DNA of 64,000 nucleotides from the NCBI GenBank assembly GCA_900175165.2, contig FWWN02000246.1:1-64000 (forward strand), written 5' to 3'. The position numbers were made by a program, and so were the translations under genes. The stretch is from Rhizomucor pusillus (lineage: Eukaryota > Mucoromycota > Mucoromycetes > Mucorales > Lichtheimiaceae). The notes beneath the pieces were generated by a model. That model was not told the origin of the DNA. It did no database searches and saw only the letters and a program-made list of their open reading frames with translations. This document shows, piece by piece, positions 4,023 to 50,436 of the stretch (the first letter of the stretch is position 1; each line of letters starts with the position of its first letter).

Positions 4023-6242
4023 GTATACCTTTATAGCTTGTTTTGTTTTACATATTCCAAACGTACATCAGTCTTTTACGACAAAAAGGAAACCAAAAAA
4101 AGCTGATTTATATATACCATGTACGAGTGCTTTAGCGGTCGCTACGCTCCTTGCACTTGGCTCGCTGCGCTCGTTTCCCGTAACCGAAAAGACTTCAGTG
4201 GAATTCGCATTAAATAATAACCTCACTTGGCCTTCATAAACCCCCATTCTCCGGCAGTTTTGCGTCCACTTCGCTACTGCAAGCAAAGCGCAGTCGAATT
4301 TCGGTTCTTCAGACCTGCGCTCGCGGGAATGCACACTTGAGCTATTATATTTCTCTGTTCTATTTAATATCTTCATTCATCACCGGCCTAGTGGAACAGA
4401 TTAAAGTTCCTGGTTATATTGCACGAAGCATTGCTCAGTCTCTTGAAGAATACAAAAGCTTAATTCACCAAAGTCAACTCTATGCTAGATCAAAGTATGA
4501 GATGCCCTGGCGCTCTTGCGTCGCGATGCGCTTCGCGCAAAGACACCAATGATTTCGAAAATACACATGTTGCTTTATTTACCTCTTTACCTGCAGAACA
4601 TGGTGGGGCAAAGATACTGGGGACTTCCGGAATACAAACCTTAATTCATGGATTGAACATTTTAAATCCTCATTTATACATTCCATTACTCATTCCGAGA
4701 TAGTACAACATGTTTCCACCCTAAAAGACGTATACATTTAGCTGCTTATTCAATGTAGACTGTTTTCCGCTCAAAGAGTTTGCTTTCATCATTCTGCTCC
4801 TGGTTGTCGGCAAGCTCTGGATATAGTGCATATACAAAATCGAGTTCTTTACAAAAATGGGTATCTGTACTGCCTGCCATACTGCAAAAGTGAGCATTAC
4901 ATACTTTCCTAGTCCCTATCACGTCCATCGAAGGGCAGAATGCGTATCGACTTTTTCGTATCCGATCAGTATAAAATGGATACCGCCGAATGAAATCCAC
5001 GTTCTTTTCCCATTGCTGCATTTCCCACCGGTAATGAAGGACCATCAATAATGACGTTAGCCTGAAAGAACTTTGATGCAGTCACGACAGGCATTATAAC
5101 ATTTTTTCTTTTTTTTTTATGCATTCCGAGATTGTCAACATCGTTTACATCAGATCCAGGCTTGCCCATCTGAAGTACATATCTTCTTTAAACTTCATGC
5201 ATACCGTTGTTAAATGCTGGCTTTTTGTGCAACTGTATAATTCAATGGTGTTAGCTTGGATGCATTAGTGCGCTGCGTATTTTTCTATAGAGAAGACTCT
5301 GATCAGGTTATATGTATGTTTTTCTGATAAGCTCCCTGACAGGTTGAGGTACGAAACTTCGCAGACGGCCTTCAGACGTAATAACCTGTACATCACTGAA
5401 GTCATATTACGTGAGAGCATATGATCATGAGCGCATAGGCAAAATATATAAAAAGATGAAGCATTTGTGTTTGTTGTCCTTTGTCTCTGCTTCGTTTTTC
5501 GCTGCATCCCGTAAGCTTTCTGTATGTCTACTTATTGGGACTACTTGAGCTCACTCTACTTATTACAGCTGTCCCCTAGTAGCCTCTGTCTTGACCCCTG
5601 GTGCATTTACTTATCACATTTTTGCTTAACATTACTCTTGCTTGTCGTTTACGGTGAATTGCTTCAAGGTCAAACGCCCAATATCGACTAAACAGTTCTA
5701 ATCAGTTGGTTTCTTATAGCCCAGGATGTATCATTTCATACGAACGGGGCAGCTCTTCCACTAAATGCCGCCTTCGGGCGTAAGTCCTGATTTTTTTGAA
5801 TCACCCCCACCACCTGTCAAACTGTGAGTCTTCCTATTGTCCTTGTATATGACAAAAATACTTTTTGTGGGAGGTCCCCAGTGAATCCCGGGAATGCTTT
5901 TTGCGTAAGTAATATATATGATTGTTCAGTTGGATACAAACTGTGTACTTAAAGTCTGTTGTTTTCTCGATATCCTTCCTTCTTCATTTCTTTCCGGTGC
6001 ATCATATTTGCTCCTGATTGTATTGTTATCTTTATAAATTAACTTCGTCAATTCTCTTATATTATAAAGATAATATCTCAAATTACTTGCTGTTGCAAAT
6101 GTAAAAGTATTCAATGGCTATATTTACATTACCAATGCCGTTTATGTTACATGTTAGAAAGGGGTGTGCATATATCGGGTAAAGAAAAAAATGGAGCAGA
6201 AGAGAGGCAGGGTGCGGAACGAACACTATTAATATATCACCA
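4023..6242. other. Gene-free stretch with repeat relic and short decayed frames
   Basis: About 2.2 kb between the broken importin and the end of the GW-repeat gene. Short open frames exist (for example on the minus strand at 4746-5048 and 4966-5169), but none shows a recognisable domain, splice-supported continuation or convincing start. The only structured element seen is the dispersed repeat copy at 4138-4330. The segment looks like decayed sequence. Confidence 0.5.
4138..4330 (+). repeat. Dispersed repeat, copy A
   Basis: This stretch shares a diverged block with 39478-39660 in the same orientation. Shared words include CTTCAT(A/T)AACC followed by CCATTCTCCGGC, then TCCRCTTCGCTACTGCAAGCA. 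Between these the two copies differ by substitutions and small indels. No terminal inverted repeats, target-site duplications or coding domain could be recognised, so the element class is unknown. Confidence 0.6.
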
Positions 6243-9200
6243 TTAGTTGTTTGTAAGGCATGCATCGGACAAATGATCATTCGATCCGCAGTAGCGGCAG
6301 GCAAGCTATCAAATATAAAATGCTGCTAAGAAAACCAGTTTTGGCGTGGACGACATTTTAACAACTTACCCTGCAATCGGCACTTGCGTGACCAGATTTT
6401 CCGCAGTTTGCACACTTTAACGTAGCTCTACGACTAAAATACGGCTTGCGTTGCTGCTGGTGCATTTCTTCGCGATAACCCGCAAACAGATCCTGGTTGC
6501 CGAAACCTGCAGTGACTCCACCCTTGTGAGACGTCGACTTTAATTGGTTCTCGAGAGTGTTGATTCTTGCTTCAAGCGACAAGATGTAGCGACGAGCCTC
6601 TTCTAGTTCCGTTTGCTTGCGTGCCTCGAATAGCTGCAACATTTGTGATTCGCGCTCGCGGGACAGCTGAAGCAATTCGGTGTATCTGGTCGATTGCATG
6701 GCCATTTCTTGCTGCGTCGTAACCAATGTCTGCAGCAGTTTGATATTCTCTCGCTGCAGTTCTTCAATAACCTTGACGATACTCTCGCGGTCCATCTCGA
6801 GGATCTTTTGAGGAGAAAGTGCTTGATCCTGTGCGATCTGAACAAGCGAGGCGGCTGAAGGAGTTGTCTCGGATTTGTTGAGACCAGGCGGCATCGAAGG
6901 AGAAGCAGACTGAGGCATCAAGGGTAGTTGTTGCTGCTGCTGGAGCAAAGACGGTTGTTGGAGATTTGGAGGTGGAGTTTGCGGTTGCAGTTGCTGTTGC
7001 TGTTGTTGCAGCAAATCTTTTAGAGAAAAGTTGACAACCTCTGTTGATTCTTCGGTCTGTTTCTCTTTAGCATTCCATCCACCAACGGTGCTGCTGTTCC
7101 AATCCTTTTCCGTATTTGCAGTCCAGTTGTGCCCATCCATAGGCACGCTGCTCGTGGTCTTAATAGGAGAGCCCCATCCTCTGTCGCTTGTAGGTGTGGT
7201 GCTACCCCAACTGCTGTTGCCCATTGCATTGCTCGAACGAGCTCTGGCTTCCTTGCCTACGTTTTCCCAGCGATCAACGGATTTCGAGGACTGGCTATTC
7301 CAGTTGTCTACTTCTGGCGTTTTCTGAGCTCGATAGTTATCCTTGGTTTCGCCCCATCCATCCGATGCTACAGCAGAAGCAGCAGGTTGCGCGTTCCAAT
7401 CATTGCTTGCCTTGTTCTTCAAGTTAGACTCAACCCAACCGGATGCATTGTTAGAAGAAGGAGCTGCACCCCAGCCATCTACGCCTGCATTGGCAGCGGG
7501 TTCCGCACCCCATCCTCCAAGGTCATCATTCTGCGCAGGTTTTGTGTTCCAGCCTCGACCTTCGTCATTGGTCCAGCTATCCGATGTAGTAAACTCTTGC
7601 TTGCTTGGCGAAGATCCCCAGCCGTCAACGGCTTGTTTCTTTTGAGCCCATCCATCGCTGACAGCCGCTTCATCCTTCTTGGCACCTAGTTCAGATCCCC
7701 AACCAGTTGCTTTGTCTTGGTTGCTAGGTGCAGAGTCCCAGCTTTCAGCTGGAGCAGATTCTGTAGCCGCAGTGTTCCAGCCATCAACGGTAGTTTTTTG
7801 AGAAGAGTCCCAGCTTGAAATATTGTTTGGAGTATCCCATCCAGCAGAAGACGATGTAGTCTTTACCGGTGTAGCTCCCCATCCATCGACAGTTGGGGCA
7901 GCAGCCGGTGCTCCCCAACCATCGGCATCAGATTTAGTTTCTTGTTTCTTGTTTGCAGCGACAGTGTTCCAGCCATCGGCGGCCGCAGTCTTCACTTTTT
8001 CTTCTTTCTTGGGTGCTTCCCATCCATCACCAGCTTTGGCTTCTTCGCCCTTCTTGTTAGATGCTGCTGCTACTGTATTCCAGCCATCAGCTTTAGGTTC
8101 TTCCTTTTTGCCAGATGCAACCGTGGTCCAGCCATCGGAGGGTGCTTTAGTTTCTTCCTTTTTAGCAGCTGCTGTTGCAGCAACTGTGTTCCAACTATCT
8201 GAACCGTTCGTAGTCTCTTCCTTTTTGCTCACTGCCACGGTGTTCCAACCATCCTTTTTTGGCTGTTCTTCCTTCTTGACGACAGATGCCGCTGAGCATA
8301 TTATGTTAGCACAGCGAGCTTAAAGCTAATTAAGAAATGTGTGTAAGACTCACCTTCTTTCACCGCAGGAGCAGGAGTTGATGCAGCATTACCGTTCTTG
8401 CTAGGTATCGTCTGCCATCCATCTGAGGATGCTTGCTTGGCAGTTTGCTTAGGCTTGGGCAGCTCCACAGGTTCCTTAGGAGGCAGCGTCGCGGCGATCT
8501 TTGAAGCCAACGATGGTTGTTTTACCGGTTCAACGGCCTTTGCTTTGGGTGGCTCTGCCTTCTTAGTTACGGCTGGCTTGGGGGATACAGCGGTCTTTGC
8601 GGTAGTCTTTGGAGCAGGTACAGACTTGGTATTGGTAGGGGTTGGAGTGGACGCTTTGGCAGCGGCGACAGTCTCTTTTTCTTTAGCAGGACTGGACATA
8701 TTCTTAATGACCAATGTAGGTGGAGCTTTAGGTGTTACCGTAGACTTGCTTTCAACTGGCTTTGCTGCTTCTGAAGCCTTTGTTGAAGCCGCAGATTTGG
8801 CAGCACTGGCGGCAGCGTCCGAGACGGTAGATGTAGACGGTGTTGGCGAAGCACTTGTTGTTTCTGAACCGCTAGCCTTTTTCTTCTTTTTGCTCTTCTT
8901 CTTCTTGCCCGACCCTTCCTCATCCTTTTCGTCCACATCGACGCCAAAAGATTTCAGCAAGTCTCGTTGCCGTTGTCGCGCTTGTATTTCACCTTGGATC
9001 CTTTTAATTTCAGTCATAAATAGTCTGCCAAGGACTCCTGCCAGTTCCGTTCGTCCTGTCACGACACCTTCTTCGAAATCATCAATCAAGTATTGGCGTT
9101 CCTCGACAAGTTCTTCGTGTTCTTCAAGGAATTGCTGGATAACGGTATCGATGGCTACTGTCTCTGCATTCTCGCCTTCCTGCATCAATGCCTCGGCCAC

Positions 9201-10643
9201 GATCAATCCGAATTTGGCAAACAGCGTTTCTGGGAATATCTTTTGGGTGACCTGAGCTCCAAAGTGCTGCCGGAGACCAGCGTATCCGTTGGCAACTCGC
9301 TTAATCTGTTTCTTGACAGTTTTAGAGCCGCTGATCTTTTCCAGTCGAGAGCGCACGTTCTTTTGATTTTCGTCCTTGTAGGCTTTCTTGAGCTTGGCGA
9401 TATCCTCCAAGTACTCGTTGATCTTGCCTTCAATGTCTCGTTGCACTGTCTCCACGTTGACAAGCACATCGGAAGTTGGATGCAGGTCTTTGAGTGACGT
9501 CGACAGCATTCTACATTGTTCCAGATGCATTTCATTCTTCTCCCCTGACGCGAGCATGCGATCGGCCATTTTTTCGATCGTGGATATGACGAGCACCCAG
9601 AGTTTCTTGACGAGTTCGTGGATGGCTTTGAGTCGCGGGAGTGCGAATTCTTTCAAGAATTGTTGAGTGTGAACTGCAAGCTGATCAAAGTATGTTTCGA
9701 AAGCTTTGTCCACAGTTTCGATATCAACCGCAGCCTTATTCTTTTTGTATTGCTCTCCCAGTACTGCCCAATAGTCGTCAAAGGACTGGATCTTTTGTCG
9801 CTCGACAAAATCATCGATCGTCTTTTGGCATCCACTGCCCATCAGTGTCGCGCGTTCTTTATCCAAAACTTGTAGCGATTTCAAAAATTCTGTAAGATGC
9901 TGCCAGGCTTTGGTAATTGCCACTTCGACTTGTGCCATGAGCCCCTTTCGAATCTTCTCCATCTTTTCGTTGAAAATATCGCGATCCACTTCAAGGTCGT
10001 TTGGCGATTTCCATTCTGGTCGAATGTGATCACACGTGGCCTCCTTGTACGAGAGCAGAATATCACCTGTCAGGTTCTTGAGCAGATGAAAGTTTTTGGC
10101 TGGCAGCACTATATGTTGGCGCTCGCTGACAAGTGGTTCTAGCAAACGAGCTGGATCCTTTGGGCCATCCTCGTCGAAAAGAACTGGATCGTATGGATCA
10201 AAGTGTACAGGACGCAAAACAACAGGCAACGTGACAACCCTGCTGGGTTGCTCTATCCATCGTTGACATCTGTTTACTATTCCGTCAATGAGCGTGTTGC
10301 TGTTGTTGTTGTTATCGTGACAAAGCGCGGCTGCCGGGTCTTCCAGCATCTTTTTGAATGGCTCGAAAAGATCTCCCGATCGCTGCTCGATTGCGGGACT
10401 CTTTTCAGCAACAGGAAGTTTCAGTCGGTAGCGACCTGCTTGTAAAATATTGAGCGACTTTGCTGCATTGCCTTCTGGTTGCTGCTTTGTGTTGTAGGCG
10501 AAATGCTTCTTGTACACAAATTGAGCCCACTCGCGACAAAAGTAGCAACGTGTCTCGGCATCGCAGGCACGGAAGCGAGAAAGCTCTTTGGAAATAGTAT
10601 TGTGCTCGATTTTTATGGCATCGATCGGCGCGTCTGTGGTCAT
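6243..10643 (-). CDS. Large GW/WG-repeat protein with tandem CCHC zinc knuckles
   Basis: Three exons read in frame: 10643-8354, 8291-6370 and 6305-6243 (1424 residues). Both introns have GT donors (GTGAGT, GTAAGT) and AG acceptors. The order is: an N-terminal half predicted helical with coiled-coil character (roughly residues 1-600), a Lys-rich patch, a Ser/Ala/Pro/Lys linker, then about 30 Trp residues in DGWNTV, DGWGA and SGW contexts. Roughly 20 of these are GW or WG. A Gln/Pro-rich stretch, a coiled coil and two CX2CX4HX4C knuckles follow (CANCGKSGHASADC, and CRYCGSNDHLSDAC in the last exon). GW/WG clusters are the known hallmark of Argonaute-binding proteins (AGO hooks, as in GW182 and Tas3), and CCHC knuckles usually bind single-stranded nucleic acid. 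A role in small-RNA silencing or mRNP assembly is inference. I do not recognise the N-terminal half. The start was set at 10643 (MTTDAP); an upstream in-frame ATG at 10727 would add 28 residues. Confidence 0.85.
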
Positions 10644-11074
10644 TATATGGCAGGAGAAGGGACAGGGCTGGTAAGAAGGAAAAGCTGTCGACCAACACGC
10701 TGTGTTTTCAAAATTTGCGCCAGACACAGGACTCCGTCCCTGTCACCACCTTCCATTGTATTGATAGTATATCTGATCGGTCCTTGGAAACCCTCATTAA
10801 CTACAAATATCTGCCTGGCAACGCTGCCCTTACTTTATTGACAAGGTACTCCATATATCAGATGCTACTACTGTCAAGTAATATAAATAAGTCTATTAAT
10901 AACGGCTTGATATCTGTATCAGTCGATCAATAAAAACACTTTACATAGAACAGCTACTAAGTAACCCTTTTCACTTGTATTGCTCCAGCAATAAACCATT
11001 ACAAAAAGTGCAAGAAGTAGATTATTTGTTGATAAAGCACTCAAACGTGGAACTTTTACAAAGATGTGCTGGGT
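10644..11074. other. Intergenic spacer, nothing recognised
   Basis: This A/T-rich spacer lies between the start of the GW-repeat gene and the end of the next minus-strand gene. It would hold the promoter of the former and the 3' UTR of the latter. No gene, RNA or repeat was recognised. Confidence 0.5.
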
Positions 11075-23051: not shown

Positions 23052-26000
23052 ATGAATAATACTTGCAATGATTTGACAGAAATATGCAACTTGACAGAGG
23101 AAGCGATAGTCAGCACACTTCGATCTCGATTTCTGGAGAACAAAATTTATACACGTATACGTAATTCGACGCTTGTATACATCAACCCTTATCAAGACGT
23201 TTCCGATTCACAGCAGGAGCTCTCTGAACGCTATCTATCTGAATACAAAGAAACATCAACTGCTATACACAGGTCCCCGCAGCAGCTTGATCCGCATATC
23301 TTCCAGCATGTAAACCAGGCGTATTTTCATCTACGACGAACGGGTAATGATCAATCTATTGTTTTCAGGTAAGCTTCAACAGACTAAATTATTTATCACG
23401 AGTATTTATCGAAAATATCAATCTGCAATAACTCCTCAGGGGTGCTACTGCTAGTGGCAAGACGCAAATGCGGCAGGCGGCTTTGTTACATTTAATGACG
23501 TTAAGCAGCAGCAATAACAAAAAGATAGAGCGCGTGCAGGATCTTGTGCAGCGTGCCTACCGAGTTCTCGAGCTGTTTGGAAATTGCAGAGCAACGGCCA
23601 ACACGAATGCATCCAGATTCGGCAGCTTTGTCGAGTTGCAGTTCAACGAAAGAGGTCGAATGATTGGTGCTAAATTTCTCGACTATACTCTCGATCGATC
23701 CCGTGTTACTCAACCGCAAGCCTCTGAAGAGACGAATTACAATGTACTTTACAAAATAGCACAGCAGCAGCAAACATCGCCTTTTCTATACAATAGAGAA
23801 GCTGCTGCACGTACCGCCGCTGACGAGGATCAGGACTTGATGGATCTCAAGTCAGATATGAAAGCGCTTGGAATAGGCAAAGCAACGTGGCAGGAGCTTG
23901 TAAACATTCTCACAGCCATTCTGCGCATCGGAAACATCCAGTTTAGCACGCGACAGCAAGATGTCATCGTCAAGAACCCGAACGAGCTCGAAGCAATTGC
24001 TCAGCTACTCGGTGTTGAGCCAAGAGATATCGAAAACGTGCTTACATACCAGACCAAGTTAGTACAGCGAGAAATGGCAACGGTCGTCCTGACAGCCGAA
24101 CAAGCAGGGGTTCAAAGGGATCAATTAGCGCAGACCCTATATACTCTTTTGTTCAGTTGGATTGTCGAAGCAATCAACCGAAAACTATGCAAATCAACTT
24201 TCCAGAATTTCATAGGCCTTCTCGACTTTCCAGGCACTAGCTCTGCACAGTCCTTTGACCAGTTTTGTGTCCATTTTGCCAACGAGAAACTGCAGCAGTT
24301 CATGTTATCGCATCAATTCCAGTACAATGCCGGGGTCTACGCCGAGAAACCTGTTGATCGCGATCCAGTAACGTTTTCCTTTGCTTCGGGATTACAGATT
24401 ACCTCAAAACTTGCAGCGTGCACGACTGCTGAGCAGATAGAGGCGCAACTGAGCGAATGCAAACAGGATCCGGCACTCACGATCAAACGCTCTGGCACGT
24501 TCTGCGTCCAGCATTTTTCGGGACCGGTTGCCTACAATGTACAAGAGATCGCGTCCAAAAATGCAGAAACCCTGAACGCTGACTATGTCGCGCTGTTCAA
24601 AAGCGATAACTGTACGAACGAGCTTGCTAAGCAGCTTTTTTCACAAAAGGTTGTGAGCGAGTCCCAGACAAAATGTGGCACAATAGTATCCGCGCAGCAG
24701 TCATCTAAACCTCACAGGTCACCTTCAATGCGCAAAAAGAATAAACGGGAGAGCACGCCGAAGCAACAAATACAGACACGATTTGGCCAGGTCGCCGATG
24801 CTATTGACGAGCTTATCACCACCTTGCAAGAAACTCAGCTGTGGTGGGTTGTATGCTTACGACCAAACGATCTCAATCTGCCAAAATCATGCGATGCAAA
24901 AAAGCTTGCTGGTCAGGTTCAAATGTATCAACTAGTGGATTTGGCACTGCGTGCAAGACATGAATATCTCGTACGCATATCCATCGATGAGTTTTGTGAA
25001 AGATACAAGGAATTGATTGAAGAGACGAGTATCAGCGACTACGGCGGTCAGGTCTCTCCAAGCGATCAGTGCCATGCTTTAATGGGTGTATTTAATTGGA
25101 ATGTTCGTATGATGGTGATTGGATACGATCATGTAAGTCTTTCTAGATTTAAGCTGAATTTTACCCTAAATATTGACATATATACTTTATTTTTCACTTT
25201 CTTTCAGGTTTACCTTGACAGTAATGCTTGGACAATACTTGAAAACCAATTACGATCGGCAGAAAAGCAAGAGCAACGAAAGGCTCGCTCCGCTGCGCGT
25301 GGAATCGCATTTGGTAAGATAGTTTTAGATGGCATTGCGTCTGCGTACTGATCAAGCTGTATATACAGACAACGATGATAACAACAATCCACCAATGAGC
25401 CCATACGACGTTGCCGCGTCTGTCATTGATGGATCCGTATTTTCAGACGAACACGGACGAACACATTGTTACACAGACACAACGACGTCCGTGCGCACGT
25501 CTTCCCAGCTTGCAAGCGATGATACCATAAAGATCCCAAAGGAGAAAACTGTCAAAACTAAAAAGCAGCGTCCAACGGCCGCGCGTGCATTTTGGGTCAC
25601 ACTGACCTGGATATCGACCTGGTGGATTCCAGGCTTTGTACTTGGCTGCATTGGTGGCATGCGTCGAGCAGACATCCGGATGGCATGGCGTGAAAAATTC
25701 ACACTATGCGTATTGATTTTTCTTTTATGTGCAGCCATGATCTGGTTCATCTGTTTCTTTGGACAGCTGCTGTGTCCACATGAGGATCTCTACTCACACT
25801 CTGAGCTTCAAGCGAGAAACAACAAGGATAATGCATACATTGCCATCCGCGGCGAAGTATTCGACCTGACTTCGTTTGCACCGCGCCATTGGGCACCCGA
25901 AGTCATACCATCCAGTGCTCTGTTCCAGTACGCTGGTCAGGATGTCAGTGGACTCTTCCCTGTGCAAGTATCGGCGCTGTGCGACGGTAACAATGCGCCA

Positions 26001-28427
26001 ATTCCGCCAGAGTTGACCTTGGAGACACACATCGATATCGTTGATTCCAATGCCAAGTACCACGACTTTAGATACTTTCAAGATGACTACCGAGCCGACT
26101 GGTACTTTGAGCAAATGATGTCGCTGCGGAGGAATTACAGATTGGGATTCATGGGCTACGATATGGACGATATCAAAAATCAGGCACTTAACCCGGTCCA
26201 GCTTGGCGGTATCAGTACTGAACGTCGATGGGCAGTGCTCCACGGCAACGTGTATGATTTGACATCCTACATGCTCGGTGGCGTCCAATTGCATCCTCGC
26301 GGCGAACCGGCAATGCCTCCCAGCAACGACACTGCAGGCGCGGATTTCATCGATAATTCTATCACAGAACTGTTTCGACAACTAGCCGGCACCGATGTCA
26401 CTGCCCACTTTGATGCTCTTCCCATGGATCCCGACAAACGCTCTCGTCAGCTGACTTGCTTGCGCAACTTGTTTTTTGTTGGCAAAGTGGATAATCGTCG
26501 TTCATTGAAATGCTTATTCTCGGAATATTTACTCTTGATCATTACTGCATTTCTGTGTAGCGTGATCCTGTTCAAGTTCCTAGCTGCATTATGTTTGGTG
26601 CCGGCGAAAGCACAGGATGAAGAGTTTGATAAATTCATTGTATGCCAAGTGCCGTGCTACACTGAAGGCGAGGAATCCTTGCGCAAGACGATCGATTCCG
26701 TGGCTGCATTGAAATACGACGATAAGCGCAAACTGCTCTTCCTCGTTGCAGATGGCATGGTGGTCGGCAGCGGCAACGATCGCTCAACTCCACGCATTGT
26801 CTTGGATATCCTCGGCGTTGACCCTTCCATTGATCCTGAACCGGTTTCGTTCCTTTCGCTTGGTCCGGGCCAAAAGCAGCACAACATGGCCAAGGTTTAC
26901 TCTGGACTATACGAGCATGCGGGCCACGTAGTCCCCTACATTGTGGTTGTCAAAGTAGGCACACCCAACGAGCGACAAAAATCTGGTAACCGTGGCAAGC
27001 GAGACTCTCAGATGGTCTTAATGCGGTTCCTTAACAAGGTTCACTACGACGCTCCCATGACACCGCTCGAGCTAGTGATATACCACGAGCTGAAAAATGT
27101 CATTGGTGTCCATCCTAGTTTCTACGAGTTTGTGCTCATGGTCGACGCGGACACGGAGGTCATGCCTGATGCGTTGAACCACATGGTGGCCCGCTTTGTC
27201 CAAGATCCAAAGATTATCGGTCTCTGCGGTGAAACAATGTTGTCAAACGAGAAGGATACCTGGGTGACGATGATCCAAGTATACGAATATTACATTTCGC
27301 ACTACCTCTCAAAAGCATTTGAATCGCTGTTTGGATCTGTTACTTGTCTGCCTGGATGTTTCTGCATGTATCGCATCCGCTCAACAACCAACAGGCCGCT
27401 TCTGGTATCCCACGCTGTCATCAACGACTATGCAGAAAACAACGTGGACACGCTGCATAAAAAGAACCTTTTGCATCTCGGCGAAGACCGGTATCTAACC
27501 ACACTCATTCTCAAGCATTTCCCCACATACAAGACAAAGTTCACACCGGATGTTGCCTGCATGACAAATGCACCCGATAGATGGCCCGTTCTCTTGTCTC
27601 AGCGTCGACGATGGATTAATTCAACAGTGCATAACCTTGGAGAACTCATGTTCCTACCGGAACTTTGTGGATTTTGCTGTTTTTCAATGCGGTTCGTCGT
27701 TATGCTTGATCTGTTAAGTACATTGGTGATGCCGGCCGTGGTGTGCTACCTTGTCTATCTGCTGTACCAACTCAGTACAAGCACAAGCCAAGTGCCGCTT
27801 ATTTCTATAATTACGCTTGCCGGCGTGTACGGATTGCAAGCTATTATTTTCATTCTACGGCGCAAGGCAAGTATATATATATACATCCTTCCATGTTTTG
27901 CAATGTACTAACCCGCTTCACTGGACTGATAGTGGGAGCACATCGGATGGATGATTGTATATATTCTGGCCATCCCAGTGTTTTCGTTCCTTGTGCCTCT
28001 CTACGCATTCTGGCACTTTGACGACTTTTCATGGGGCAACACACGCATTGTACTCGGCGACCGCGGACAAAAGAAAGCGGTCGGCCCCGAAGAAGGCGAA
28101 TTTGATCCGCACTCCATCCCTACAAAACGGTGGGCTGAGCACGAGCGAGATATGTGGGAGCACTCGAATGCCGACGACGAAAAAGTGTTCCGATCTCCCA
28201 GACACTATGCTTCTTCAAAGTATCTCAGCACTGTCGGCAACATCCAGCTCCCTACTGAATCAGAAATTGCGCGGGAAATCGAACGTATCTTGCAGGAGGC
28301 CGAGCTTTCGCATTTGACCAAGAAGCAAGTACGCGATCAGCTGTCAGATATTTTCCAAATCGACATGAATTACAAGCGAGCCTTTATCAACAAATGCATC
28401 GAGTCGTGTCTACAAATGTATAAATAA
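23052..28427 (+). CDS. Chitin synthase with N-terminal myosin motor-like domain (class V/VII)
   Basis: Five exons give 1702 residues in frame: 23052-23368, 23440-25132, 25208-25313, 25369-27866 and 27933-28427. Residues 1 to about 700 are a myosin head: P-loop GATASGKT at 107-114, switch I-like NTNASRFG, and a switch II region reading LLDFPGTSS. Two membrane helices (about 776-838), a cytochrome b5-like fold (GEVFDLTSFAPRHW, about 866) and a third helix follow. Then comes the family 2 glycosyltransferase domain with VDADTEV, GETMLSNEKDTW, CLPGCFCMYR, GEDRYLTT and QRRRW (about 1449), terminal helices, and a DEK-C-like tail (last 60 residues). The enzyme polymerises UDP-GlcNAc into chitin at hyphal tips. 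The last intron has a GC donor (AAG|GCAAGT), needed to join FILRRK to WEHIGWM. The CT-rich leader is noted separately. Confidence 0.95.
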
Positions 28428-46348: not shown

Positions 46349-49300
46349 CTACTCACATGCCATCGATCCCGCTAGAGTGAATATCGAAGGTTGAGACATT
46401 GTGCTTGAATTCTTGAATGCAGCGTATCGATCCACAGAATCTAAGCCGTGTAAACCTGGTTACTACAAATCTGAAGTTCATCTACAGTTATCTACTTACC
46501 CGACATATTGTTGTTGTTTGGCACACCGGTCATCTGCGGTTGCAAATAGCCTGTAGGTTGTCCCTGCAATGGGCTCTGAGTAAACATGTTGCTGTTCGGT
46601 GTAGAGAACTGGACACCGGTACGCTGAGGGCTTAGCGGGGCGACAGTGCTGTCCAGAGGTGATCCAAATGGATTATCCGGTGCTTTTTGTAACAGAGTTT
46701 TGAGTACATAGTTAACTTTGTGCATCGTTTAAAATACTTACTAGCTGACTGCCAGTTGCGGATACCTGTCGGCTGAACACTGACTCCCATTTGAGAAGTG
46801 TTGACCAAGCTTGCTCTTTGATTTGGTGCAGGCACAAGCGGCTGCGGTAGGATGGAGGACAGCGGTACTTGGCTCATTGTCATGGGTTGCTGGTATCCTG
46901 TGGCCACGGCGCCTTGCCAGGACGGCTGCTGCTGCCGTTGGTACATGGAAAATGGTTGCTGTTGCGGGGGTTGCTGCTGGAAATCAGTCATTTGAGCTTG
47001 CATAGGGACATGAGGTTGCTGCTGGAAGCCAGTGACTTGAGCAAATTGTTGTTGCTGCTGGGGTGCTTGGAATCCGGTTATTTGTGCCTGGATGGGCATC
47101 TGCTGCCATTGCGGCGGCTGTTGCTGGTGCATAAATTGCTGGCCCGTTGCTTGCATCATCTGCTGCTGAGGGAAAGCGTACTGAGGACTCATCGTGTTTG
47201 ATGGAGGTTGTGAATATGTTTGAGTCTGTGGAGCAGCAGCAGTAACAGCGAAATTATCCATTTGAGCACCTGTTTGCATAGGTATTTGCTGCTGCTGTTG
47301 TTGCAGCATTTGCAAAGATGGTTGCTGCACTTGAACGGATCCAGTTGGCTGACCTTGTAATTGTCCAGTCGATGGCTGTGGTTGAGACTGATTGGTACCT
47401 GTCTGCTGCTGCCAGTGACTCAAGGTAGGATCGGCTGTATGCTTCAAAGTGGACACGGGTCGTTGTCTAGGAGGTATTGGAACTTGTGCCTGAGGCGGCT
47501 GCTGCTGTTGTTGTTGTTGAGGAGGAGGAGGAACAGGTGCTGGAGGAACTGCTGGTGGAGCAGGCGGAGCAGGAGGAGGAGGTGTCACTGTAGCAGGCTG
47601 GGAAACACCGGTTGGGGCAGCCTGCACGGGCTGAAGTGGTGATTGCGGTTGCTTTGCGACGTTTGTGGATGGTAGTCGCTTGGCTTCCTCGCGTGGAGTC
47701 CATGCATCATCGTCAAATCCAATAAGGTTATCTGGTGGTGCTGCACCCTTCGTAGGCGCTTTGTCAGAAGAAGGTGTATCTGCAGTGAACTGTGTGCCGA
47801 TAAACTCGAGTAAATCAGGATGGATCTCTTTCGGAGCAGATTTGGATGGTTTCGGTCTTGCTGCTTTGGGAGCTTCTTGTCCGTTCCATTCACGATATAA
47901 TCTTCGTGCTAATTCTTCATCGCTTTCTAAATGCGCCTGTTGTTTCGATGGACCTCCTTTTGTCTGCTGCTCCTCGGCTTGTTCATCTTCATTGTCCGAT
48001 GGAGGTTCTGGCTTCTCATTTTCTATGTACCGTTCTATCCGTTGCACATGTTTCTCTTTGACTCCGAGCGTTTTCATACGCTTGTGAGTGAGATTTGGTA
48101 TATCGCTATCATCCAGCTTATCGGCTTTGAAGGCTGACGCATAGATGAGTGCAGCTTCCATTGGTATACCGATCATCATAAACCAGTCGAACCAATCCCA
48201 GTTGGGATTCACCTTCTTTTCCTGCTTGGCAGGTTTAGATGTTGATGGACCGGCAGCTGCCGCACCTGCCTGCGGACGAGGAGGCATAGGTGGAGTTGGT
48301 TCATCGTCAGGAATGGCGCCTGAAGCATTGGTAACTTTTCGTCCGAGGTGATTTTCGACCCATTGTACGTCTTCCAAACTCATCTTCTCCACCGGGACGT
48401 CGATTTTGACGCCATTTGTCTTGTGCAGACGGAATTTGCCGTCATAAAATGTCAAAAATTGTGCATCGACCTTGAACGCGCCGCTTCGGTCAGTCCAGGT
48501 TCGTACCCTGGTCATGTCAGGTTCTTAAATCGAGGAGTTACTATTTTGTACTGGATATATTTTCAGTTAGCACCTTACTAGGTAGATCCTGGTTACTGGC
48601 CGACACACTTTGAGATCTTGAAAGGCCGCTTGCACGAGCATCTGCAAAAGGAAATATTCAGCATATGTACGTTATAGACGAGAATCGAACTGTATGTACT
48701 AACCAGAACCTTGTTCAGGCAAAGTTGCAGTCCGTTGCAAGTTCTAGACAGATGAGCATGAAATTTCGATTGATGAAAATGTTTTAAAACTTACTGTTGA
48801 TCGGCGTCGTTCTGCCTCGGCACGCTTCCGGTTCTCTTCCTCAATCTGCCGCTGGCGCGTAAGCTCTGCTCGGCGGGCTGCCTCTTGCAACTTTCTTCTA
48901 CGCTCTTCTTCCTCGCGTCTCTGTGCCTCTTCCTGACGTCGTCGCTCTTCTTCTTCGGCCTCTCTCTGACGACGCCGGCGTTCTTCCTCCTCAGCTTGTC
49001 GACGCCGCTCTTCTTCCTCTGCACGCTCCAGCAGTATTCTACGCTGCTTCTCTTCTTCTTCACGTTTTCTCTCGGCATCGTTGTCGTAATCCTCGTTAAG
49101 TAGGACGTACGATGATGGAACAATTCCTTGTCTACCGTCTGTCTTCTCAATCTGCCACCATCCATCATCCCGGACATGGTCGATAACCAAAACTTGTTCG
49201 TTTTCCTGAACATCAATCTCGTCCCCAGCTTCAGCTGTAAAATTATACGAAACAAATCCCCATCGGGGCTCACAGGCCGGCTCTGCTGCGGGGACTAGAC

Positions 49301-50436
49301 GAGGTGGCATTGCTGGTTGCTGCTCTCGCGTTTGATCGTAACGATCTGCTTCTTCGACGTGACTTTCTTGCGGAGACCTCACGTGCGTTGCTGCTCTTTG
49401 CGCGATATTTCTAGAATCAGTGATTTTGACAAGAATAGCCTTGGCCTCTGACTTTGATGCTGCCTGCAGATCGAGCGTGGACGGCCGAGGACCAGCAATT
49501 TCAATGTGGAGATTCTTGCCATCAAATAAATATTTTGTTACATCCAGAATAGAGTACTTTTGAACAGGCAATGTCTTGTCTGTTTCGCTGCCATAGCAAA
49601 TCATGCCATTTCCGATCAAAAGGTTTCCTTTGTTCTTTTTCTTCTTCTTTTTAGCAGGATCATAATCGTGCACCGTCCACGACTGTGCGTCGTCTGGTTC
49701 CACAGCTCTCGCTCCAGTCTGCAACAAGGCCAGCTTAGAGTCACGATCGACTGTTAGGAGAACGCCATTCGATTAGTACTTACCGCGTGAGCGTTTACAG
49801 GCGTGACGATAGGGGGTGTTACTATTGAAGGAGGTGTTGGTGTGCTTACAGGTGGCGATGCAGCGGCAGCTGCCGCTCCTGCTGCAACCTCCGGCTCTGG
49901 CTCCTCATACTGCGGCGAAGATACAGCATCCTCGTAGTGCTCTTCCTCTAAATCCTCCTGTGTCTGCTGCTGGCCAATAGCAGACATCTGTCCTTGTCCA
50001 TCAATGTCACGAACATAATTGCCCGGTGCCAGTCCAATCTCGCCAGTTTTTTCCATTTTAACGAGTAACCAGTCTGGATCGTCACGTTCGAGAACGAGCA
50101 TTGTATCTCCTTCGGCGAACGTGAGTTCCTCTTCGTGCTGTGCAGCGTAGTCGTATTCTGCTTCGACTCGACCGACGGGTTCGCACTATTATTGTTGTAA
50201 CTTATAAGCACGTTTGCAGTAGACGCTCGAAAGAGTAAAGTACTTGCTTCTGTAAGATAAGTTGCCGGGACGAGGCCAGTAAGTCCTGGCTCTCCGTTCA
50301 CTTTCAACTCTGCCCGCCACCAGTCGTCGTCTTCTTTCTCGACGACGTAGAGAATGTCGTCCTCATGGATCGTTATCTCGTCTGGAGTACGTGCTTCGTA
50401 GTCGTAAAGAGCTTTGCACACTTCCACGTACTTCAT
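46349..50436 (-). CDS. SLA1: Endocytic actin-patch scaffold Sla1
   Basis: Eight exons give 1224 residues in frame: 50436-50248, 50185-49784, 49718-48795, 48743-48704, 48641-48579, 48523-46742, 46682-46500 and 46440-46349. Three SH3 domains are present: CKALYDYEA...DDDWWRAEL; EYDYAAQHEEELTF...PDWLLVK; and FVSYNFTAEAGDEIDV...DDGWWQIE. Then come a long Glu/Arg coiled coil, the SHD1 domain (RTWTDRSGAFKVDAQFLTFY) that binds NPFxD sorting signals, an SHD2/SAM-like domain, and a Gln/Pro-rich tail with many Q(A/I/V/M/P)TG repeats (the LxxQxTG type phosphorylated by Ark/Prk kinases). Sla1 links cargo, clathrin and Las17/WASP at cortical endocytic sites. The first intron (50186-50247) has a GC donor (GAA|GCAAGT), the only choice that keeps SH3-2 in frame. 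It is divergent from PRP18. Confidence 0.94.

Follow-up and report, generated by a model that had tools for sequence, protein, structure and literature searches.

The question raised by this locus is whether an early-diverging mould possesses a scaffold that docks Argonaute (Ago) through an array of GW/WG tryptophans, as the initial annotation had proposed. The gene was found on the minus strand at 6243..10643 of the window, the whole 64,000-nucleotide stretch of Rhizomucor pusillus DNA analysed here, and its earlier coordinates and content were upheld. Exon 1 (10643..8354) is followed by intron 1 (8292..8353, GTGAGT...CTCAG), exon 2 (8291..6370), intron 2 (6306..6369, GTAAGT...GATAG) and exon 3 with the stop codon (6305..6243), all on the minus strand, with canonical GT-AG introns and a single open frame across the joins. 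Relatives were also found; the gene is real and evolutionarily conserved in early-diverging moulds. The 1,424-aa protein begins with an N-terminal domain, continues with a GW-type array of 30 Trp and then a Q-rich stretch, and has a likely coiled coil ahead of its two CCHC knuckles.

The tryptophan (W) array occupies residues 743-1169 (7075..8417, minus strand), is split by intron 1 and holds 30 of the 36 Trp of the whole protein. Residues 741-1172 include 30 W, 42 G, 1 F and 1 Y. GW and WG dipeptides were observed 29 times, against a mean of 5.8 and a maximum of 15 in 10,000 shuffles, and 21 of the 30 W in the array adjoin a G. Moreover, across 686 W in 41 proteins, G was enriched 7.9 times at -1 and 4.7 times at +1, and D 5.2 times at -2. 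The description of about 30 Trp in DGW/GWG contexts with few other aromatics was thus borne out, whereas the linker that had been called acidic proved only mildly so (D+E 59, K+R 48, residues 741-1172). Judged from its composition, the array region is probably disordered.

The linker was compared in 12 pairs of relatives, some with a common member and each W counted from both sides, using an alignment matrix with no bonus for W. W showed the highest conservation, 88% of 408 observations, compared with 76% for K, 64% for G, 56% for S, 46% for Y (n=26) and 38% for F (n=74). Regarding spacing, a test of all W after residue 600, lone C-terminal ones included, put the gaps of 21 of 26 proteins among the most uneven 5% of random placements, an effect of single W lying well outside the cluster. 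In the main cluster, delimited by splitting at gaps of >60 residues in a test chosen after the all-W result was known, 24 of the 26 W-rich members were more evenly spaced than 95% of random placements, and 34 of 501 gaps were shorter than 8 residues versus 173.6 expected. The R. pusillus protein was evenly spaced in both tests. For human TNRC6, Ago sites are reported with W at least 10 residues apart (PMC9262622). On this evidence, the array is not due to chance. Family members differ widely in their count of W beyond residue 600 (0 to 30), as neutral low-complexity drift within a disordered linker might leave it, but this explanation is highly improbable and already disfavoured, since W is the best kept linker residue and evenly spaced, and no DNA tandem repeat above the TRF score threshold was found in 6200..10700. 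That W was kept while F and Y were not, together with the even spacing of W, suggests recognition by a receptor specific for W, as opposed to a role as generic aromatic stickers.

In the case of Argonaute as this receptor, the R. pusillus genome was found to match the Piwi domain twice and Dicer_dimer once, and to have RdRP matches on two contigs. Among 120 Agos, the Trp-site residues P590 (117/120), K660 (119/120), C691 (120/120) and P700 (120/120) were kept, and R688 was R in just 75/120. Both R. pusillus Agos retain P590, K660, C691 and P700 with V591 and F659 replaced; at position 688 one of them has R and the other K, and L650 is replaced in one. A structural survey describes the GW pockets as variable among fungal Agos (PMC12477606). 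The Pfam Ago_hook model (PF10427) had no match listed for the exon translations and none in the R. pusillus genome, and the control genomes were likewise without a match.

C-terminal to the array, a PPGL motif of the GYF-domain ligand type was located at residues 1231-1234 (6880..6891, minus strand) and is conserved in relatives. The earlier annotation had overlooked it. Among the 53 knuckle-bearing relatives of at least 800 aa, PPG[FILMV] was present in 50, against 1.8 expected from shuffling, and 47 carried it 90-260 residues ahead of the first knuckle (0.49 expected). The motif is more widely kept in the family than the W array, and by its sequence it points to GYF-domain partners of the GIGYF/Smy2 type. 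A single GYF match was found in the R. pusillus genome, its nearest solved domains being those of GIGYF1 and GIGYF2; the PPGL of TNRC6 is reported to bind the GIGYF2 GYF domain directly (PMC5467174). A likely coiled coil follows at about residues 1255-1335 (6577..6819, minus strand); its limits, set by eye, are approximate, it forms a conserved block in the family consensus, and its comparison with TRIM_CC (PF25600) gave E 0.016, below the model cut-off.

Two CCHC knuckles had been described after the W array, and the pattern C-x2-C-x4-H-x4-C indeed occurs twice there. Knuckle 1 (residues 1390-1403; 6373..6414, minus strand) matched PF00098 (zf-CCHC) with E 0.0015, at 19.0 bits against a cut-off of 20.8 in the exon-2 piece, which contains this knuckle only. 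Knuckle 2 (residues 1407-1420; 6258..6299, minus strand) lies wholly in exon 3 and agrees with the family consensus CRYCGxxxHLSExC. PF00098 matched 9 of 22 relatives, with a best E of 3.4e-06. Lin-28 likewise has two adjacent CCHC knuckles, with weak profile similarity to those of the R. pusillus protein (E 0.0024), but this similarity is generic and no cold-shock domain was matched by Pfam. These knuckles bear on whether the protein could be a W-rich regulator outside RNA silencing, such as an adaptor in trafficking with a Smy2-like GYF protein as its partner. Smy2 is reported to act in COPII vesicle formation (PMC2239301), and the helical N-terminal domain shows no RNA signature in Pfam, both of which would suit such an adaptor. 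Nevertheless, we consider it improbable, as tandem CCHC knuckles, by the zf-CCHC and Lin-28 comparisons, are of nucleic-acid type and no trafficking family was matched convincingly.

The N-terminal domain itself spans residues 1-570 (8934..10643, minus strand). AlphaFold predicted residues 1-605 to be ordered (mean pLDDT 86.6), with a mixed alpha/beta fold to about residue 200 and long helices on to about 565; the long helical N-terminal half described earlier was therefore confirmed in the prediction, preceded by the mixed part. Searches of Pfam, NCBIfam and PDB gave no convincing match, in agreement with the claim of a large unrecognised domain, and no convincing homology of this half to a known non-RNA family emerged. 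In the conserved columns among relatives, C27, C36, C204 and H206 are invariant or nearly so and could possibly form a metal site.

Pfam has no model dedicated to this family, whose named relatives come from Mucorales, Umbelopsis, Calcarisporiella, Glomeromycotina and Coemansia; no Coemansia Ago was found among the best 120 of 2,685 matches, and none of the relatives was identified as lacking Ago. In the Ago-bearing genera Absidia, Cunninghamella, Hesseltinella, Gongronella, Glomus and Gigaspora, homologues carry 1-4 W beyond residue 600, and four Glomeromycotina-type members have both PPGL and knuckles with only 1-2 W. Thus, having Ago does not in itself require the array, which appears to have been added in particular lineages to an older core of PPGL and knuckles. 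An independent-pairs test of the W array against PPGL or knuckles was not significant, with 7 pairs, informative pairs being too few. As for the proposed "Ago-hook factor", the conservation, context and spacing of W fit Ago-hook arrays, but the W-poor homologues in Ago-bearing genera count against a strict Ago role. CNOT9 and PAN3 offer other W pockets that such arrays could bind. The same homologues, and the wider retention of PPGL and knuckles than of the array, would accord with a general mRNA-repression or granule scaffold operating without Argonaute, in which PPGL (as ligand of a GYF protein), the coiled coil and the knuckles are at work and the array either binds the W pockets of CCR4-NOT/PAN3 or supplies condensate stickers. 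This alternative is a serious one, though we rate it as rather doubtful. The even spacing and the retention of W but not F or Y oppose stickers, and several Ago Trp-site residues are kept; these points do not separate Ago from CNOT9.

With a W array, PPGL and two RNA-type knuckles, the protein may have evolved independently into an equivalent of GW182. The reading that we favour, at a confidence just short of even, is a multivalent RNA-silencing or mRNP scaffold that works like animal GW182 and is unrelated to it. In this scaffold, the array would dock one or more Argonautes via the Trp pockets of the PIWI domain, PPGL would recruit a GIGYF/Smy2-type GYF protein and so lead to translational repression, the coiled coil would oligomerise the scaffold, the knuckles would hold the target RNA, and the N-terminal domain would anchor it to a partner. 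The older core of domain, PPGL, coiled coil and knuckles would have been an mRNA-regulation adaptor, the Ago-docking array having expanded later in part of the Mucoromycota. A more far-reaching claim, which is conceivable but which we would not expect to hold, is that early-diverging fungi independently built a GW182 from an unrelated RNA-binding scaffold, in which PPGL connects to a GIGYF-type repressor and a W array docks several Argonautes, giving Mucoromycota a translational-repression arm of RNAi like that described for animals.

GW182 has a Q-rich stretch, as does the R. pusillus protein, and in both GW182/TNRC6 and this protein a multi-GW region, here the putative Ago-docking one, is followed C-terminally by PPGL. 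In contrast, the N-terminal domain, the likely coiled coil and the two CCHC knuckles set the R. pusillus protein apart, no sequence homology to GW182/TNRC6 was found, and for UBA, RRM and PAM2 no Pfam match was listed at E<=10 with the two exon translations, the HMMER filters dropping most matches above 0.1. Tas3, NRPE1 and SPT6L are Ago-hook proteins with reiterated GW/WG in a disordered region and have chromatin or transcription roles and other domains. The R. pusillus protein shares the reiterated GW/WG and the probable disorder, but none of their domains was matched in it by Pfam. Within fungi, Cryptococcus Gwo1 is reported as a GW182-like protein complexed with Ago1 at P-bodies (PMC6643885, PMC4778953); by this description, it resembles the present protein as a fungal GW-type protein of an RNAi-proficient host. 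No basidiomycete was among the named relatives found.

Mucor is described as a model of fungal RNAi, including epimutation and non-canonical RNAi, and the titles and abstract openings of the open-licence papers retrieved named no GW-type effector of its Argonautes. A conserved family that combines a W array with a GYF ligand and RNA knuckles supplies a concrete candidate for such an effector. If the protein docks Ago, animals and fungi would have convergently assembled a like scaffold of Ago hook, PPGL and RNA contact. The Ago-keeping lineages without the W array, or without array, PPGL and knuckles together, provide a natural experiment. In addition, a GFGNQDLF motif (residues 1359-1366; 6484..6507, minus strand) is also kept in the knuckle-less members.

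The gene at 10643..6243 on the minus strand contains two small canonical introns and encodes a product of 1,424 residues, and its coordinates and description in the initial annotation were upheld. A structured N-terminal domain (residues 1-570) is followed by a Lys/Ala/Pro/Ser/Thr stretch (residues 601-740) with 0 W, 0 F, and 0 Y, the array of 30 W (residues 743-1169), a Q-rich stretch, PPGL (residues 1231-1234), a likely coiled coil, and the GFGNQDLF motif, which starts at residue 1359. Two CCHC knuckles (residues 1390-1403 and 1407-1420) close the protein, and the second occupies its own exon. These parts and their conservation are direct observations. The linker, previously described as acidic, is merely mildly so, with 59 D+E against 48 K+R in residues 741-1172.

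The proposed search with residues 1-600 was productive and retrieved 60 proteins, while a profile search returned 69; combined, they gave 83 different proteins, including the window's own fragment. Named relatives belong to Mucorales, Umbelopsis, Calcarisporiella, Coemansia, and the Glomeromycotina genera Paraglomus, Glomus, and Gigaspora. This range reflects the rows with an organism name, many rows being nameless, and the family may be wider because the searches scored just the candidates with the most shared words. No convincing Pfam match was obtained for the N-terminal domain of the window protein and 22 relatives. The AlphaFold model of residues 1-605 was confident (pLDDT 86.6, pTM 0.77), and that of residues 1-238 alone was weaker (pLDDT 77.2). 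Fold searches with the domain returned just low-TM or generic helical-bundle matches, and residues 1-238 gave no match at E ≤ 0.001. C27, C36, C204, and H206 were invariant or near-invariant across the family and possibly form a metal site.

The array departs strongly from chance. GW or WG dipeptides occurred 29 times in residues 741-1172, whereas shuffling the segment 10,000 times produced 5.8 on average and never more than 15. The gaps between the 30 W had a median of 13, a minimum of 8, and a standard deviation of 5.4, against a mean of 13.5 under random placement, and none of 10,000 placements was equally even. Among the 68 members with a length of ≥800 aa, 26 carried ≥15 W downstream of residue 600. 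When all of these W were used, 21 of the 26 ranked within the most uneven 5% of random placements, as lone distant W spoiled the test; after the main cluster was delimited at gaps >60 residues, a choice made after that result, 24 of 26 fell within the most even 5%, and 34 of 501 gaps were shorter than 8 residues (173.6 expected). In flat-identity-matrix alignments of 12 pairs of relatives, no residue was conserved as often as W, at 88% (n=408), compared with 38% for F (n=74) and 46% for Y (n=26); the 408 observations exceed the independent events because certain members occur in more than one pair and residues were counted from both sides. Around 686 W from 41 proteins, G was enriched 7.9-fold at -1 and 4.7-fold at +1, D 5.2-fold at -2, and N 3.4-fold at +1. 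No DNA tandem repeat above the TRF threshold was found in the gene. Taken jointly, the dipeptide excess, even spacing, and W conservation suggest that selection acts on tryptophan itself and on a minimum W-W distance.

At least one CCHC knuckle was present in 53 of the 68 members and absent from 15. Of the 53 with a knuckle, 50 had PPG[FILMV] downstream of residue 600 and ahead of their first knuckle, where shuffling predicts 1.8; in 47 of the 53 it lay 90-260 residues ahead of the knuckle (0.49 expected); the three without it were the own-genome paralogue and two Phycomyces proteins. Two of the 15 knuckle-less members had the motif, one short (811 aa) and the other labelled partial. The paralogue (contig C299, locus L019:987-3995, + strand) is W-poor, 45% identical, and has GFGNQDLF and at least one knuckle, without a PPG-phi motif. 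Four Glomeromycotina-type members, one unnamed, contain PPGL and two knuckles, yet only 1-2 W; thus, PPGL and the knuckles look like an older core, the array having been gained or expanded later. In a trait table of 53 rows, PPG-phi and knuckles each occurred in 28 of 29 rows with at least 7 W, and in 11 and 13, respectively, of 24 rows with fewer, an association that is not independent of shared descent; an independent-pairs test of the array against PPGL/knuckles yielded 7 pairs, too few to reach significance. The family tree was built by a quick method, and several of its branches are long, including the query's own. Absidia, Cunninghamella, Gongronella, and Hesseltinella proteins are without array, PPGL, and knuckles, and end 23-81 residues past the start of the retained GFGNQDLF; because these are depositors' gene models, a last exon was possibly missed. 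GFGNQDLF (window 6484-6507) is conserved even in relatives without the other three features.

GW-array Argonaute hooks are already known from proteins whose frames are unrelated. The present frame, with PPGL and tandem knuckles, did not appear in searches of open-licence papers, and no Pfam model covers its N-terminal domain. Ago-binding W in TNRC6 lie at least 10 residues apart (PMC9262622), and TNRC6 PPGL binds GIGYF2, with AAGL weakening the binding and translational repression as the reported effect (PMC5467174). TNRC6 and the Rhizomucor protein have both ligand types in the same order, and the latter adds knuckles. On this basis, the most likely reading, which we hold at slightly under even chances, is a scaffold that would assemble Argonautes on an RNA and bring in the GYF repressor, the knuckles providing the RNA contact; we infer every contact. 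The PPGL-GYF step alone, an inferred contact likewise, is in our personal estimate quite probable. UBA, RRM, and PAM2, which GW182 has, were not found in the Rhizomucor protein, so membership in GW182 is not claimed.

The 24.45 Mb genome of the organism (353 contigs) gave two Piwi-domain matches, RdRP matches on two contigs, one Dicer_dimer match, and one GYF match, whose closest solved domains were GIGYF1 (E 4e-17) and GIGYF2 (E 5e-17). The sole GYF-domain protein found (L024:736-3135, + strand, contig C302) is Q-rich and carries SGWGS motifs itself.

The chief alternative is that this scaffold acts without Argonaute, and the W would then bind CNOT9 or PAN3 or form condensates; the sequence fits either. 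In both own Argonautes and almost all of the 120 listed, V591 and F659 of the Trp site were replaced. P590, K660, C691, and P700 were retained in both own proteins and in 117, 119, 120, and 120 of the 120, respectively; R688 was R in 75 and K in one own Argonaute. P590, K660, and R688 are Trp-site residues that have been mutated (PMC11336974), C691 and P700 belong to pocket 3 (PMC9262622), and fungal GW pockets are reported to be variable, with pocket 3 distinctly conserved in fungi (PMC12477606). Our counts agree with this last survey, which calls for caution about Argonaute docking.

Co-occurrence was read from the best 120 of 2,685 Argonaute hits, in which the own Argonaute was 87% identical to that of Dichotomocladium and 86% to that of Zychaea. 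Together with a lipase closest to 1TGL, these identities probably place the organism within the Lichtheimiaceae, near Rhizomucor. These 120 included W-rich Apophysomyces, Radiomyces, Zychaea, Phascolomyces, Phycomyces, Choanephora, Rhizopus, Mucor, Parasitella, Cokeromyces, Mycotypha, Benjaminiella, Sporodiniella, and Pilobolus; few-W Lichtheimia, Hesseltinella, Gongronella, Cunninghamella, Absidia, Glomus, and Gigaspora; and Umbelopsis (4-10 W). Outside them fell W-rich Thamnidium and Helicostylum, and W-poor Syncephalastrum, Fennellomyces, Backusella, Calcarisporiella, Paraglomus, and Coemansia. In this comparison the family was not seen in any genus shown to lack Argonaute, but several genera with Argonaute among the best 120 lack the array.

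The genome was also scanned for paired DGW codons lying near each other. Of the 29 matches, 5 were inside the gene and many of the others were simple GATGG repeats; two further DGW-cluster genes were conspicuous, so the product need not be the sole GW factor of the genome. One (L021:906-3575, + strand, contig C285 near 96463) is an 889-aa ORF with about 8 W in DGWG-type contexts and a PAM2-like stretch after them (PF07145, E 0.031, below cut-off), its GW cluster and PABP-ligand motif making another GW182-like combination. The other, a gene piece (L020:2529-3203, + strand, contig C198 near 135801-136166), has a dense GWG array and a RanBP2-type zinc ribbon match (PF00641, E 0.0029, below cut-off). 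Elsewhere in the window, pieces of a myosin-motor/chitin-synthase gene (Myosin_head, Cyt-b5, Chitin_synth_2) lie at 23468-27911 (+), and pieces of an SLA1-like endocytic adaptor (SHD1, PH_SLA1, SH3) at 46632-49727 (-).
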